Below are positions 55,400 to 63,211 of a stretch of DNA of 64,000 nucleotides, piece by piece. The DNA comes from Synechococcus sp. CCY 0621. Its GTDB lineage: Bacteria > Cyanobacteriota > Cyanobacteriia > PCC-6307 > Cyanobiaceae. How positions within the stretch are numbered: position 1 is the stretch's first letter; each line of letters begins with the position of its first letter. The stretch lies in assembly GCF_019038465.1 (NCBI RefSeq), contig NZ_JAFKRH010000011.1:62001-126000 (forward strand), in the 5' to 3' direction. Both the position numbers and the translations under genes were made by a program. The notes beneath the pieces are model-generated. The model saw only the letters and a list, made by a program, of their open reading frames with translations. It made no database searches and was not told the DNA's origin.

Positions 55400-57523
55400 G
55401 GCGTCATCCAGCTGCCGCTCCAGCGACTGGCGGATCAGGCCGATGGCGTAGGGGACTTCCTCCAGCGTGGCCACACCCAGCTCCACCTCACCGTTGCCCC
55501 AGCGACGCATCCCGGCCACATTGCGGGCCAGCCCCTTGGGGTCGTCGAGTTCGGCGTAGGGCATGTTGAGGGTGAGGTGCAGTCGCTTGGCCTGGGGAAC
55601 GATGTCGACGAAGTTCGTCTCACACTTGTAGGCGATGTAGACCTTGAGCACGTCTTGGTAGACGTTGGGATCGAGGGCCCGGATGCTCAGGTCAAGGGCA
55701 TCGAACAGCGTGCGGATGTGGGGAATCGCCAGCTGGGGATGATCGGCCAGGGAGTAGGCGGCGGCGGGATTGAGGGGTTTGCTCCAGTACTCGGCCAACT
55801 GCTCTGCCGGCAGGGAAGGAGCGGCCCACACGTGCAAGGCACGATCCGCCAGGTTGGCTCCGCGCACCTGGATCTGCTCAACGCCCCAGGCCTCGAGCTG
55901 GCCCAGTCCCTGGTTCAGCCTCAGGGGGCTGCCGGCGAAGCCGCCTTCATGATTCCGCTTCTCGAGAAAGGGGCGATCACTGAGCTCAGGGTTGTAGCCG
56001 GAGAGGGTGAGGTTGCCGAGCCGGTGCAGCCATTCCTCCTGGAGCGCCTTCCAGTTCTCGCCCAGGGCCTGTCGCCAGGGGGCGGGCAGTTCGGGGTTCT
56101 GGGGAAGGATGTGCTCGATCGTGTACTCGGCCACGGCGATCGGCTCCTTGCGCTGGTGGTTTTCCAGCTTCCGCAGCCAGTAGCTGCAGCTCTTATTGAA
56201 CTTGTAGAGGTTGCGCTCCTGCAGGTCGCGCCGGAACTCAGCGTCGGTGGGAAAGCGGCGGTAGGACGGGAGGCTCTGCAGATGGGCTTTGAAGCTGGGC
56301 AGGTAGTGGCCGCTTTCCTTGCGCAGGGAGCGGCTGAAGGTGGCGAAGGTTTTCTGCTGGGAGTTCGACGGGATGGCGCAGACCGCCCGGCGGAACACAT
56401 AGGACTCCAGCAGCTCCAGGGCCTCCAGCAGCTCGCCTTTGCTGAGCAACCCTGCCTCGTGGTCGCCGTAGAGCTCCAGCAGCAGGGGGTTGACCACGTT
56501 CACCTTGAGCTCACGCAGGTTGAGGAACGCCTGGTGCAGCGCGGGGTCGGGTTCCTTGCCGAGCACGATGCGGGTGTAGCGGCCCGCCACGGCGGCCACT
56601 TCCTTGAGCAGGCTTTCGATGCCGGCCTGCTCCACTTCGGGCCGGCGAGCGTAGGCCTTGAAGGTGTCGTACACCTGATCGAGCAGGGGCACCTCACCGG
56701 TCTGGAGGGTGAGGAAATCGCGCATGAAGGCGCTGAACTCGTTGCCGCTGTAGGCCTCCTGGCCGAAGGCCAGCTCCATGGGCCGCCAATGGAGGGTGTA
56801 GAGCCGCTCCTGCAGCTCGGGTGGCTGCCCCATCAACACGAAGTTGCGGATCAGATCGGCCTGGGAGAGCTCCCGGCCGGTGGAGTTCATGCTCTCGAAG
56901 ATCAGCTGGGGATTGTCCTGATCGCGGGCGAGGGCCACATCCACCACCAGCAGCTTGCTGATGCCTCGGCACAGCAGGGCCAAATCGGTGCCGCTCTGGC
57001 GCAGCTGATCCAGGAAGAACTGGTGATTGGCCTGGATGCGTATTGAGGGCTCCGGTGGCGGCGCAGCCACCGAGGGATCGACCAGCGCCATCAAGGTGGC
57101 GCGGTCGGTGTCGGAGAGCAACAGTTTGAAGCGCTTGTCGCCTTTTTCGAGAGGGTTGGTCAGGTAGTACTGGCGGATCTTGGCCGGAGCGAAGCCTTGG
57201 ATCGGTTCCTGCTGCTCCTCGGGCAGGCCTCCCAACACCTCGGCCAGGGCGGTGAGCAGCAGGGTGACGGTGGTGAGCCGCTGCTGGCCATCAATCACTA
57301 GCTTGGGAGCCTGCACCGCGAGATTGCCTAGGCCCTCATCGATGTGGACCACCGAGCCGATGAAGTGGACACCGATCTCCTCGGTGCTACCGGTGCGGAG
57401 GATATCGGACCAGAGCTGGGCGCATTCCTTCTCCGTCCAGGAGTAAGTGCGCTGATAGATCGGGATGATGAACTGGGAGACGGCACCCAGGATTTGGAGG
57501 AGCTTGGCTTCTGTGGCTTTCAT
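55385..57523 (-). CDS. DUF262/DUF1524 GmrSD-like nuclease
   Basis: 712 residues. DUF262 domain with the nucleotide-hydrolysis motif DGQQR (78-82, in VIDGQQRLTTV). DUF1524 HNH nuclease with IEHILPQN (469-476) and HRLGNLTLSGYN (500-511). A DUF5655-like C-terminal domain follows (about 600-710, LFDALDLSIRALDPNVYQDV). This matches the fused GmrSD type IV restriction family, which attacks modified DNA. Overlaps hsdS by four bases, so it is coupled to it. Confidence 0.9.
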   Translation of the reverse strand: MKATEAKLLQILGAVSQFIIPIYQRTYSWTEKECAQLWSDILRTGSTEEIGVHFIGSVVHIDEGLGNLAVQAPKLVIDGQQRLTTVTLLLTALAEVLGGLPEEQQEPIQGFAPAKIRQYYLTNPLEKGDKRFKLLLSDTDRATLMALVDPSVAAPPPEPSIRIQANHQFFLDQLRQSGTDLALLCRGISKLLVVDVALARDQDNPQLIFESMNSTGRELSQADLIRNFVLMGQPPELQERLYTLHWRPMELAFGQEAYSGNEFSAFMRDFLTLQTGEVPLLDQVYDTFKAYARRPEVEQAGIESLLKEVAAVAGRYTRIVLGKEPDPALHQAFLNLRELKVNVVNPLLLELYGDHEAGLLSKGELLEALELLESYVFRRAVCAIPSNSQQKTFATFSRSLRKESGHYLPSFKAHLQSLPSYRRFPTDAEFRRDLQERNLYKFNKSCSYWLRKLENHQRKEPIAVAEYTIEHILPQNPELPAPWRQALGENWKALQEEWLHRLGNLTLSGYNPELSDRPFLEKRNHEGGFAGSPLRLNQGLGQLEAWGVEQIQVRGANLADRALHVWAAPSLPAEQLAEYWSKPLNPAAAYSLADHPQLAIPHIRTLFDALDLSIRALDPNVYQDVLKVYIAYKCETNFVDIVPQAKRLHLTLNMPYAELDDPKGLARNVAGMRRWGNGEVELGVATLEEVPYAIGLIRQSLERQLDDATGSP

Positions 57524-58761
57524 GAGTTGGCAATTAAGGCTTGAGAATCAAGCCCTTCTCTTCGAGCGCAATGCTCATCGAAGGCGTACTCAAAAAGGCT
57601 GAAGCAAAGAGATCGATTCATCTTCTCAGCCTCGAAAACGCCTGCTTTGCTTTTTTCACTCTTTCGGCCGATCGCGGCCATCAAGTCAGCAAACCTCATC
57701 TGGTCTTTAAGGGGAGGTATTACAGAGGGGAACTCGGATAGTTCAGTAATTTGCAGATGCTTCAACGCATTACCCTTGCCCATTTGCTGGATTCTTTGCT
57801 GAACAGGAGCGCACCTGATATAAGCAGAGACATACTCAGGGGCAACTCGGGATCGATCAGGTATGACCAGGGCGACGGACTGATTAATGCACAACGGGCC
57901 CCCTGCAGGGGCTATCGCGCATCTACCTATAGATCCATCCTTTGTAATGAGGATGTCGCCGGGAGCTGGCTTGCACTTGCTTGTCAAGGCGTCGAACTCG
58001 TCCTGTCGTGCATAGTGAACATTGTATAGGTCTATGAAGCCGTTCTGAATATTCTTTGCGGTCAGGATTGGGATGCCGGCATCCTCGTGAGTCATGGGAG
58101 ATGTGAACCCGTACGTAATTCTCTTTGTCATTTGGCTAAAGGGCACATGAGAGCGGCTCGAGTCCGTCGAGAACGGATTTCCAAACATATCGAGAAATAT
58201 GGAGTTAGCTAGAAACTCAATTCTTTCCAGGCTCTTTCGACGAAGGCTTAGAATTTTGTTGGCCTTGTCCAGAATCGCCGCGATGCGATGCTGCTCCTTC
58301 AGGGGGGGGAGGGGGATTTCAAGTTCTTTGAACGTAGAAATATTGAAACTTGCCTGATTGACCGACTTCTTCGCAATTGTGGATATCTGCGCGACGAATC
58401 GCCTGTTCCTGAGAGCGTGAAGGATATAGCGTGGAAGCGCGACTCTTTGATCAACCCTGAGATTCAGTAAATTCATTCCATGAACGATTTCTCTTGCCTC
58501 TTCTTCGTAAATCGCGCATTTACCAAGATGCGCCAGGCTGTTGATATGGCTAATGAGAATATCGCCTTCCTCTAGCAGCCATCCCGAACAGTCTTTCGTT
58601 TCTAGTCCTGCGTATCCACACCTAGAAAAATTGAAACTGCCAGATGCGATGGTCTCAATCCTGGTAATCGGTAGCCCTCCCGCGCCTGGAGACTGCTTTA
58701 TGCTCATGCCATTCCTGAGTAGGCAGGCAATCTCGCCAATAGCAACAGTTGGCCAGCTCAT
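57520..58761 (-). CDS. hsdS: Type I restriction-modification specificity subunit
   Basis: 413 residues: target recognition domain 1 (1-145), central conserved region (IPLPPLKEQHRIAAILDKAN, then LSLRRKSLERIEFL), TRD2 (about 195-340) and a second, weaker conserved region (PPLKDQMRFADLMAAI). Two half-sites are expected. The base composition is clearly AT-richer than its neighbours, a sign of transfer or TRD replacement. Overlaps hsdM and the DUF262 gene by four bases each. Confidence 0.93.
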   Translation of the reverse strand: MSWPTVAIGEIACLLRNGMSIKQSPGAGGLPITRIETIASGSFNFSRCGYAGLETKDCSGWLLEEGDILISHINSLAHLGKCAIYEEEAREIVHGMNLLNLRVDQRVALPRYILHALRNRRFVAQISTIAKKSVNQASFNISTFKELEIPLPPLKEQHRIAAILDKANKILSLRRKSLERIEFLANSIFLDMFGNPFSTDSSRSHVPFSQMTKRITYGFTSPMTHEDAGIPILTAKNIQNGFIDLYNVHYARQDEFDALTSKCKPAPGDILITKDGSIGRCAIAPAGGPLCINQSVALVIPDRSRVAPEYVSAYIRCAPVQQRIQQMGKGNALKHLQITELSEFPSVIPPLKDQMRFADLMAAIGRKSEKSKAGVFEAEKMNRSLCFSLFEYAFDEHCARREGLDSQALIANS

Positions 58762-60629
58762 CGCAGCATCCCCTCCAGCTCCTCGATCCCCTGCAGAATT
58801 TCCTGCTCGATCGCCCGCAATTCGGCCAAGATCTCCAGCGGCGGACGATGCTCCACTTCCTCGTGCACCAGCTCCTTGTAGCGGTTGAGGCTGAGGTCGT
58901 AGCCCTGCTCGGAGATCTCTGCCTTGGGCACACAGAAGCTCTGGGCAGTGCGTTCCCGCTCGCGCTCGGAATCCTTGCGGTGGCGCCAGCGGGCCAGACA
59001 GTCGGGCAGGTTGTTCTTCCCGTGCTCGCCTTCGGCCAGGGGTTCTTTCGGAGCGGGCCCGAGCTTCTCCAACGGCAGCAGCGGGTTGCGCTTGTCGTCG
59101 AGGCTCCAGCCGTCGGCCGTCATGTCATAAAACCAGACGAGGTCTGTGCCGCCCCGGCCGGTTTTGGTGAACAGCAGGATCGCCGTGCTCACGCCCGCAT
59201 AGGGGCGGAACACGCCACTCGGCAGCGAGACCACGCCCTCCAGGAAGTGATCTTCAACAAGGGTGCGGCGCAATTCCTTATGCGCCTTGCTGGAACCGAA
59301 CAGCACGCCATCGGGCACGATCACCGCCGCCCGCCCGCCGGGCTTGAGCAGCTGCAGGAACAGGGCCATGAACAGCAGCTCGGTCTTCTTGGTCTTCACC
59401 ACCCGCTGCAGCTTGGCGCTGGTGCTCTCGTAATCGAGTGATCCGGCGAAGGGCGGATTGGCCAGGATCAACGAGTAACGGTTTTCCTCAGCGGCACCGT
59501 CTTCCGAGAGCGAGTCGCGGTAGCGCACATCGGGGTTCTCCACCCCGTGCAGCAGCATGTTCATTGCGCCGATGCGCAGCATCGTGTTGTCGAAATCGAA
59601 GCCATGGAACAGACCATGGTTGAAGTGCTCCCGCAGCTGTGGATCACTGAGCAACTCCGGGTGGTGCTGGCGCAGGTATTCGCCCACCGCCACCGGAAAG
59701 CCGCAGGTGCCGCAGGCCGGATCGGCCATCACATCGGTGGGCACCGGCTCGGTCATCGCCACCATCAGCTCGATGATGTGGCGCGGCGTGCGGAACTGGC
59801 CGTTGGTGCCGGCGGTGGCCAGCTTGCCGAGCATGTACTCGTAGATGTCGCCCTTGGTGTCGCGGTCGGCCATCGGCACCGCATCGAGCAGATCGACCAC
59901 CTTGTCCAGCAGAGCCGGGGTCGGGATCGTGAAGCGCGCATCCTTCATGTGGCCCGCATAGGCCGAGCCATCACCCCCCAGTTCGCGCAGGAAGGGGAAC
60001 AGGCTTTCGCCCACCAGCGCGTACATCTCGCCCGCGGCCAGGTGCTTGAAGCGGCTCCAGCGCAGTTGCTCGTAGGGGCGCTTGTGGACATCGGCGCCCT
60101 CTGGGAACAGGCGCCGCGCTATCGGTTGGCCGGTGCGCTGGGCCTTGCGTTCCTCCAGGGTTTCCAGCTCATCGAGGCGCCGGATGAACAGCAGGTAGGT
60201 GAGCTGCTCCAGCACCTCCAGCGGGTTGGCGATGCCGCCACTCCAGAAGGCATTCCAGATGGCATCGATCTGGTTGCGCAGCTCACCGGTGAGCACCGAG
60301 GCGGCGGTGGAGCCGGGGGCGATCGCTTGCTGGGCCGTGGCGGGGGTCGCGCCATTGCCGTTGCGGCGGCCGCGGCCGTTGCCTGATGGTTTGGCCGCTC
60401 GGGGCGGAGGGCTGAGGCCTGGGGCCTTCAACCCGCCGCCGGGGCCCCGGGCTTTTTCAGCGGCACCCATGGCCACCACATGGTCCTTGGCGGCTTCGAA
60501 CTCTTCGTCGCTGAAGTGTGCGTCGGCCTCTTCGGCCAGGGCCGCCCGCAACTGCTCGTTGCTCACGCGGCTGCCGTCTTCCGGGATCAGGGCCAGCAGG
60601 GCGTCGGTGAGGTCGGTGCGGACTGGCAT
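58758..60629 (-). CDS. hsdM: Type I restriction-modification N6-adenine methyltransferase
   Basis: 623 residues from ATG 60629 (60668 would add 13). An unusual N-terminal 60-residue helical domain (winged-helix-like), an Ala/Gly/Pro-rich linker (60-105), then HsdM_N (ELRNQIDAIWNAFWSGG) and N6_Mtase. The SAM motif is DPACGTCGF (303-311; normally DPACGTGGF) and the catalytic motif is NPPF (391-394). Methylates adenine at the HsdS site. Preceded by a 15-base palindrome at 60674. Confidence 0.95.
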   Translation of the reverse strand: MPVRTDLTDALLALIPEDGSRVSNEQLRAALAEEADAHFSDEEFEAAKDHVVAMGAAEKARGPGGGLKAPGLSPPPRAAKPSGNGRGRRNGNGATPATAQQAIAPGSTAASVLTGELRNQIDAIWNAFWSGGIANPLEVLEQLTYLLFIRRLDELETLEERKAQRTGQPIARRLFPEGADVHKRPYEQLRWSRFKHLAAGEMYALVGESLFPFLRELGGDGSAYAGHMKDARFTIPTPALLDKVVDLLDAVPMADRDTKGDIYEYMLGKLATAGTNGQFRTPRHIIELMVAMTEPVPTDVMADPACGTCGFPVAVGEYLRQHHPELLSDPQLREHFNHGLFHGFDFDNTMLRIGAMNMLLHGVENPDVRYRDSLSEDGAAEENRYSLILANPPFAGSLDYESTSAKLQRVVKTKKTELLFMALFLQLLKPGGRAAVIVPDGVLFGSSKAHKELRRTLVEDHFLEGVVSLPSGVFRPYAGVSTAILLFTKTGRGGTDLVWFYDMTADGWSLDDKRNPLLPLEKLGPAPKEPLAEGEHGKNNLPDCLARWRHRKDSERERERTAQSFCVPKAEISEQGYDLSLNRYKELVHEEVEHRPPLEILAELRAIEQEILQGIEELEGMLR

Positions 60630-60673
60630 CAGACGTGGAGCGGGGCAGGCAGGGGAGAGTTGGGACAAGTGTG

Positions 60674-60736: not shown

Positions 60737-61144
60737 TCAAGCTGCCACCACCCAGTTCTCCAGCAGCAAGCCTTCCACCCGCTGGAATTCGTGCAGGTTG
60801 TTGCTCACCAGGGTGAGCCCTTCGCTGCGGGCATGGGCGGCGATGTGGAGATCATTCACGCCGATCGGCTGTCCCTGCCGCTCAAGCGCGGAGCGGATCT
60901 GTCCATAGTGCTGGGCGGCCTTGGGCCCATAACTGAGCACCTCCAGGCGGCTGCAGAAATCCTCCACCACCGCCAGCGAGCGTTCCGGCGCCGAACTCTT
61001 CTCCGCCCCATGCAGCAGTTCGCTCAGGGTGATTGCCGAGATGGCCATGTGGCCGGCATGGCGGTTGAACAGCTCCAGGGCCGAGGCTGGCCGGCGCTTG
61101 ATCACGTCGATCGTGATGTTGGTGTCCAGCACGTAGCGCAGCAT
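60737..61144 (-). CDS. VapC-like PIN-domain toxin
   Basis: 135 residues from ATG 61144 (MLRYVLDTNITIDVI). PIN-domain acidic residues: Asp7, the Glu of LSELLHGAE, the Asp of VNDLHIAAHA, and the final LVSNNLHEF motif. Expected RNase toxin (often cleaving tRNA or rRNA). Open frame to 61288 is not used. 13 bases after vapB. Confidence 0.93.
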   Translation of the reverse strand: MLRYVLDTNITIDVIKRRPASALELFNRHAGHMAISAITLSELLHGAEKSSAPERSLAVVEDFCSRLEVLSYGPKAAQHYGQIRSALERQGQPIGVNDLHIAAHARSEGLTLVSNNLHEFQRVEGLLLENWVVAA

Positions 61145-61157
61145 CTGGGTGGCCCCG

Positions 61158-61391
61158 TCAGAAGGACTCCCGCTCGTCCTGTTGCTGGGAGGCCCGTTCG
61201 GCCATGAAGTCGTCGGGAACGCTGGGAACTGAGAGGAAGAAGCTGTCCCAGCTGCTGCCCAGCGGGGCAATGATGCGCTCGCAGCCACGGGCGCGCACTT
61301 CCACTTGCTTGACGCTGTCGGGAAGTCGCAGCTCAGCAGGGATGCGCACCGCCTGGCTGCGGTTGCTCAGGAACAGGCGGGTGATCGCCAA
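61158..61391 (-). CDS. VapB-like antitoxin
   Basis: 77 residues from a TTG at 61391: AITRLFLSNRSQAVRIP then a tail with SFFLSVPSVPDDFM. AbrB-type swapped-hairpin N-terminal DNA-binding domain. A repeat GGGATATCC (twice) lies just upstream. The weak TTG start fits low antitoxin output. Should neutralise the VapC-like toxin. Confidence 0.9.
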   Translation of the reverse strand: MAITRLFLSNRSQAVRIPAELRLPDSVKQVEVRARGCERIIAPLGSSWDSFFLSVPSVPDDFMAERASQQQDERESF

Positions 61392-61405
61392 GGCTCGCTA
61401 GCGAT

Positions 61406-61427
61406 GGATATCCCATGAGGATATCCC
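61406..61427 (-). promoter_or_regulatory. Tandem GGGATATCC repeats before vapB, candidate operator
   Basis: On the minus strand GGGATATCC occurs at 61427-61419 and 61414-61406, 13 bases apart, 15-36 bases upstream of the vapB start. The core GGATATCC is itself a palindrome. This layout fits autoregulation by VapB/VapBC. Inferred. Confidence 0.5.
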
Positions 61428-61448
61428 GGAATCGGAGATCGCGACAGC

Positions 61449-61476
61449 AAAAAAAAGCGCCCCCGCAGGGGCGCTT
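61449..61476 (-). terminator. Intrinsic terminator of groES-groEL
   Basis: Read on the minus strand, GCGCCCC pairs with GGGGCGC (61468-61474 with 61457-61463) around a four-base loop, followed by eight T residues (complement of A-run 61449-61456). It lies about 50 bases after the groEL stop. Confidence 0.9.

Positions 61477-61525: not shown

Positions 61526-63211
<1,686 letters not shown>

Follow-up and report, generated by a model that had tools for sequence, protein, structure and literature searches.

Two palindromic boxes at a 13-bp pitch as a probable operator through which a chromosomal vapBC operon of a Cyanobium-like cyanobacterium represses itself

On the minus strand of the window (the whole 64-kb stretch of DNA that was analysed), genes and sites follow in the order groEL, a terminator-like hairpin, two short boxes, vapB, and vapC. 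The antitoxin gene vapB (61158..61391, minus strand; TTG start, 77 amino acids and a stop) precedes the toxin gene vapC (60737..61144, minus strand; ATG start, 135 amino acids and a stop), with 13 nt between the vapB stop codon TGA (61158-61160) and the vapC ATG (61142-61144), an antitoxin-first arrangement by which the pair is classed as an operon on gene order only. VapB scores 102.5 bits against model NF040493 (cutoff 60), which places it with the SpoVT/AbrB (MazE-like) antitoxins, while the general Pfam MazE model PF04014 falls below its cutoff for this protein (19 versus 24.7), and it carries the loop SNRS at residues 9-12, counting TTG as residue 1. VapC scores 159.2 bits against NF010285, the model of tRNA(fMet)-specific VapC (cutoff 143), and 71 bits against PF01850 (cutoff 23.6), making it a PIN-domain toxin, and it has D7, E42, and D98, which we take to be the positions where PIN enzymes have their catalytic acids. 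Judged from these matches, the module is a SpoVT/AbrB-type VapB joined to a tRNA(fMet)-class VapC. Of the solved structures, PDB 6IFM and PDB 3ZVK (the latter presumably VapBC2 of Rickettsia felis) both match VapB and VapC of the window by sequence, and the closest relatives are VapB and VapC of PDB 3TND (E-value for VapB 5e-17, with an identical SNRS loop). In the available portion of the source, 3TND is given as the S. flexneri VapBC and 6IFM as Salmonella VapBC, called DNA-bound (PMC11796401).

A site resembling an intrinsic terminator follows groEL at 61455..61476 on the minus strand (one found, versus 0.1 expected from shuffles), and vapBC thus appears set apart from groEL transcription. 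The upstream neighbour itself (61526..63163, minus strand) is presumably GroEL, named from its sequence, and the order groEL-vapBC is common to the window, Cyanobium sp. Cruz-8D1, and Cyanobium N.Huapi 1H5. Directly after vapBC, the window encodes HsdM and HsdS (Pfam assignments; 57520-60668, minus strand), a pair of the type I restriction-modification kind; hsdM also follows vapBC in Cruz-8D1 and is absent from the 1.6 kb examined downstream in N.Huapi 1H5, where a Phd/YefM-YoeB toxin-antitoxin pair (L033:2785-3323) comes after groEL-vapBC, in the place of hsdM in the window. Different genomes may thus receive different defence or addiction genes at this site behind vapBC.

The start of vapB at TTG, as proposed in the earlier note, is well supported. 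Upstream of the TTG at 61391, the in-frame codons are GCC, CGA, and then TAG, and an in-frame stop is met three codons before the TTG in the window and two codons before it in N.Huapi 1H5, with no ATG, GTG, or TTG intervening; the 60 codons examined upstream in Cruz-8D1 likewise hold no in-frame ATG, GTG, or TTG. In rows L005-L018 of our set of relatives, ATG or GTG stands one codon earlier in 13 of 14, at the position where the window, Cruz-8D1, and N.Huapi 1H5 have GCC. In the full set of 100, the start is ATG in 83, GTG in 13, and TTG in 3 (window, Cruz-8D1, and L142), with none in the remaining one, when ATG is preferred over GTG and GTG over TTG in the vicinity of the aligned start. Downstream, a GTG is found at codon 15, where initiation would remove the DNA-reading loop. 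With no earlier start open and this cost attached to the later one, TTG is probably the true start, common to the window lineage, and vapB is very probably translated from it. The weak translation that the earlier note derived from this codon, with its bearing on the toxin/antitoxin balance, is a possible consequence.

Upstream of this start, GGGATATCC is found exactly twice in the window, both times on the minus strand, at 61419..61427 (left, upstream box) and at 61406..61414 (right, downstream box), with a centre-to-centre spacing of 13 bp, so the claim of two repeats 13 bases apart in the vapBC promoter position is borne out; the span first ascribed to them, 61392-61430, encloses both boxes, the pair proper occupying 61406-61427. 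Read along the minus strand from 61427 to 61406, the arrangement is GGGATATCC TCAT GGGATATCC, and each box contains the 8-bp palindrome GGATATCC as its core (61419-61426 and 61406-61413, columns 3-10 and 16-23 of the family motif, respectively). Recurrence of GGGATATCC somewhere within the window is by itself no great rarity, two or more copies arising in 6 of 100 shuffles, which is what a chance pair of palindromes without function could draw upon; such a pair is made exceedingly improbable by the closeness of the boxes, two GGATATCC cores no more than 30 bp apart being expected only 5.6e-5 times per 64 kb by a first-order Markov estimate, and by the conservation in relatives and the independent placement by a non-cyanobacterial matrix that are described below. 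Across the whole 3,230,971-base assembly, the vapB locus is the sole occurrence of two GGGATATCC copies separated by 0-8 bases, and GGATATCC-N5-GGATATCC with up to 3 mismatches is found here at 0 mismatches and in five other places, all at 3.

Relatives of the module were collected through several protein searches. At an E-value of 1e-5, relatives were found in 28 of 201 Cyanobiaceae genomes, at 1e-15 in 33 of 400, and, phylum-wide at 1e-12, in 3 of 386 genomes, these three samples overlapping one another. With other family members as queries (E 1e-15), relatives were found in 22 of 399 genomes in the order of the L044 genome and in 15 of 369 genomes in the class of the L065 genome, and a scan of named genomes, from which the best 80 of at least 321 confirmed relatives were used, contributed many that are beta- and gammaproteobacterial by title. 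From 166 loci, 115 passed the cut (tblastn identity of at least 45%, at least 60 bits, and a match starting by residue 15), and removal of 15 near-duplicates, among them L004/L033 (N.Huapi 1H5, left box GGATTTCC), left 100 non-redundant rows. The motif work leaves out the distant VapB-like relatives (approximately 30-45% identity). A second, distant VapB-like group of this kind is present in the same cyanobacterial family (L020-L023, L025, L026, and L031; approximately 40% identity, NGHS or NGNS loops), often with a tighter repeat, judged by eye to resemble GGATGTA-N4-TACATCC, just before the start, and this group apparently uses another operator pitch.

An expectation-maximization (EM) search for one 26-bp motif, on which neither symmetry nor spacing was imposed, placed a site in 90 of the 100 upstream regions, and in the window it chose exactly 61404..61429 (minus strand), which we treat as the 26-bp operator. 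The family motif consists of two boxes of about 8 bp at a 13-bp pitch, with the upstream box doubling as a -10 hexamer, and the suggestion that the repeats are operator-like is supported at the sequence level by the recurrence of this same element in 90 of 100 non-redundant relatives. The best of 8 EM starts reached a log-likelihood of 1061 (occupancy 92%), versus 98-110 in 10 dinucleotide-shuffled sets, and the run placing 90 sites, with more starts and iterations, reached 1101. The pitch also emerges from simple repeat counts: direct 8-mer repeats (at least 7 of 8 matching) at lag 13 are present in 45 of 100 upstream regions (mean of 15 shuffles 3.1, maximum 7), compared with 1-8 of 100 at each of the remaining lags between 8 and 30. 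Inverted 8-mers at lag 13 are present in 32 of 100 (shuffle maximum 6), and further odd lags show lesser excesses, such as 21 at lag 15 and 19 at lag 17, a pattern that TATATA-like boxes would produce. A matrix of the 65 non-cyanobacterial sites, built without the cyanobacterial set to avoid circularity, ranks the window site first in the 64 kb (61404, minus strand, 22.2), followed by its own opposite-strand reading (11.2), with the next non-overlapping site at 7.3. The distance from the motif end to the aligned first codon is 11-30 nt in 82 of the 90 sites and 45-55 nt in the other 8. A scan of the region upstream of vapB in the window revealed no second operator, the next-best site scoring -10.4 bits. 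In 5 of the 100 relatives (L074, L147, L153, L162, and L163), a second box pair scoring at least 8 bits is found upstream of vapB, in resemblance to the two-operator layout of enteric vapBC.

In relatives, the upstream box carries the marks of a promoter element. Motif columns 6-11, which lie within the left box and at its edge, read TATACT in 29 of the 90 sites, TAGACT in 17, TATACA in 9, and TATAGT in 8, with other hexamers in the rest. A -35 element (at least 4 of 6 bases of TTGACA) is found 17 bp upstream in 24 of 90, versus 0-7 of 90 for each of the 11 remaining spacings between 12 and 23 bp, and 66 of 90 are without a good -35 at 17 bp. The identity of the hexamer and the -35 at 17 bp therefore suggest that the left box is also the -10 element in these relatives. 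In the window, the putative -10 hexamer TATCCT (61418..61423, minus strand), which overlaps the left box, matches TATAAT at 4 of 6 bases only, and a sigma-70 promoter scan of this stretch found no promoter pair, with no -35 passing, so that the -10 assignment there follows by position from the relatives.

The motif was not placed in 10 of the 100 relatives, in 4 of which the reading loop looks intact. Among relatives that have the site, 79 of 90 carry a loop of the form [SNT]NR[ST], versus 4 of 10 among the others (Fisher p 0.0014, uncorrected for relatedness), and VapC was detected in 85 of 90 versus 5 of 10, counts from which relatedness is not removed and in which some misses may be contig ends. 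It would seem that decayed modules tend to lose the site, the VapB loop, and VapC together. One of the 10 rows, L140, has a similar pair, seen by eye, beside a misplaced start. The VapBs of L016 and L017 have SHRS for SNRS, with diverged boxes (GAGACAGACT...GTAAATC; ...GGAGATCC) and no VapC match in the stretch examined, and these modules are possibly losing function.

These observations also bear on whether the boxes might serve another regulator, or be a VapB activator site, instead of serving VapBC repression. A precedent for activation exists in Synechocystis, where VapB15 is reported, in the accessible part of the source, to increase the activity of its own promoter (PMC5924515), and the unrecognisable -35 of the window would fit an activated promoter. 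Against these roles stand the presence of the element beside vapB in distant bacteria and in differing genomic settings, its tendency to vanish together with the VapB loop and VapC, and its overlap with the -10 and the predicted start site. A protein bound over the -10 and the transcription start normally blocks polymerase. We thus consider either of these roles very unlikely, and auto-repression by VapBC remains our preferred explanation.

The earlier note had the bound dimers lying nearly on one face of the helix, and this part was not borne out: 13 bp make 1.24 turns, leaving the box centres 86 degrees apart at 10.5 bp per turn (65 at 11 and 108 at 10). A geometry of a related kind has been described for the Shigella VapBC, whose two DNA-binding domains are, according to the available text, spaced by a non-whole number of turns and rotated by 56 degrees, so that the DNA is "approached from two sides" (PMC3384007). 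The rotated-domain clamp put forward for that octamer would fit the window better than binding on one face, even if the two angles, 56 and 86 degrees, differ.

A single VapB dimer could, alternatively, read the whole 21-bp element as one interrupted inverted repeat with two half-sites. The 25 cyanobacterial sites, of which 24 are Cyanobiaceae-clade rows and one, L112, comes from another family, speak for such a site, the boxes being inverted repeats of each other (at least 7 of 8) in 19 of 25 and direct repeats in 3 of 25. The other 65 sites, mainly proteobacterial, reverse this relation: 32 of 65 have direct repeats matching at 7-8 of 8 positions and 9 of 65 have inverted ones, and it would be surprising for one symmetric site to accept both orientations. 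Agreement between the flanks of the left and right boxes is further above expectation in the direct register (0.628 versus an expected 0.494 +/- 0.017) than in the inverted register (0.575 versus 0.515 +/- 0.020), shared ancestry not being removed from either value, and the Shigella octamer, as presented in the available text, has two dimer domains (PMC3384007). We therefore see a single-dimer site as unlikely and retain two boxes, each for its own dimer.

In the window, the direct and inverted registers coincide. The exact tandem repeat noted earlier is real there, yet special: no more than 2 of 90 sites, both of the window lineage, have perfect palindromes in the two boxes, and N.Huapi 1H5, a third genome of this lineage, has GGATTTCC as its left box, so that the exact repeat varies even inside the lineage. 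Palindromy inside the boxes was also considered as a covarying family trait and was rejected, showing no excess over column composition (left 0.644 versus 0.651, right 0.672 versus 0.679), in a test that is silent on the symmetry of the consensus itself. What the VapB family conserves might be the 13-bp pitch, as set by the VapB4C4 octamer, with box orientation left free, and the GGATATCC pair of the window, which fits both orientations, might suit either kind of VapB; we offer this tentatively, as a possibility somewhat short of even.

Another candidate, VapB residue 12 (Ser or Thr, the last of the SNRS/NNRT loop) as a specificity switch, is not claimed after tree control. Over 90 rows, residue 12 and the right-box base (C in TATCC, others in TATAC/G) combine as Ser with C in 38, Ser with other in 10, Thr with C in 5, and Thr with other in 37, and the link persists in 66 non-cyanobacterial rows (Fisher p 5e-6 on raw counts). 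A quick tree of VapB and VapC, made without the residue-12 column, offers 5 independent pairs on well-supported branches (11 on all branches); of the 5, an average of 1.9 run in the same direction, 0.5 in the opposite one, and 2.6 show no difference, too few for a sign test to reach 0.05. Residues 35, 5, 8, 29, 6, 9, and more have mutual information with operator columns equal to or above that of residue 12, as shared ancestry would give.

Taken with what is known of enteric systems, the two boxes are, with high probability, the auto-repression operator of this chromosomal vapBC operon of a Cyanobium-like cyanobacterium. By analogy with relatives and from established knowledge, a VapB dimer, through its SpoVT/AbrB domain and SNRS reading loop, would sit on each 8-bp box, the two dimers lying in neighbouring major grooves roughly a quarter turn from each other, and VapC would join two VapB2C2 units into a VapB4C4 octamer clamping both boxes at the 13-bp pitch. 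With the left box over the -10 hexamer and the right box over the predicted transcription start, binding would exclude RNA polymerase, and proteolysis of VapB or an excess of VapC would free the promoter.

The system to which this model is closest is enteric vapBC (mvpAT) of Shigella and the F plasmid, for which the available portions of two papers describe an octamer with two SpoVT/AbrB domains and operator sites OS1 and OS2 over the -10 and -35 (PMC3384007, PMC11796401). For S. flexneri, the accessible text gives the complex as a VapB4C4 octamer that binds two sites overlapping the -10 and -35, and expects Ser8-Asn9-Arg10-Ser11 of VapB in the major groove (PMC3384007), corresponding to SNRS at residues 9-12 of the window VapB. 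Each of the two operator sites of the Shigella promoter is drawn as a pair (PMC11796401). As far as these partial sources go, the window shares with enteric vapBC the VapB family and its SNRS loop, the VapC class, a site over the -10 (putative in the window), and the antitoxin gene coming first, and it differs in having one box pair rather than two, in its GGATATCC palindromes, in the TTG start, and in its chromosomal position beside groEL.

Among cyanobacteria, the Synechocystis vapBC10 and vapBC15 are also vapBC operons with promoter repeats, so far as the available parts of the two papers describe them (PMC3834315, PMC5924515). The former differs from the window in being a PIN-COG2442 pair with other repeats, given in the accessible text as TTTTGATA-6N-TTTTGTTA and TTTCCCT-2N-AGGGTAA (PMC3834315), and the latter in that VapB15, while binding a palindrome, is reported there to activate (PMC5924515), in contrast to the repression in our model. 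Among the matches listed in searches of the open PMC literature, judged by titles and abstract openings, we found no 13-bp two-box operator for the VapB family of the window. The pitch of 13 bp may, however, have been published already by Winther & Gerdes (2012), the principal previous study of how enteric vapBC is regulated.

From the sequence comparisons, the window operator is of an already known kind, VapBC auto-repression, of which it appears to be a well-defined local variant. With the operator model for this VapB family, of two boxes at a 13-bp pitch with the left box as the -10, vapBC promoters would become recognisable in distant bacteria, and the window, with two identical palindromes in one pair, would provide a clean minimal site for measuring the grip of the octamer on boxes a quarter turn apart. 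The constancy of the pitch, with box orientation varying, is the most interesting residue of this analysis.
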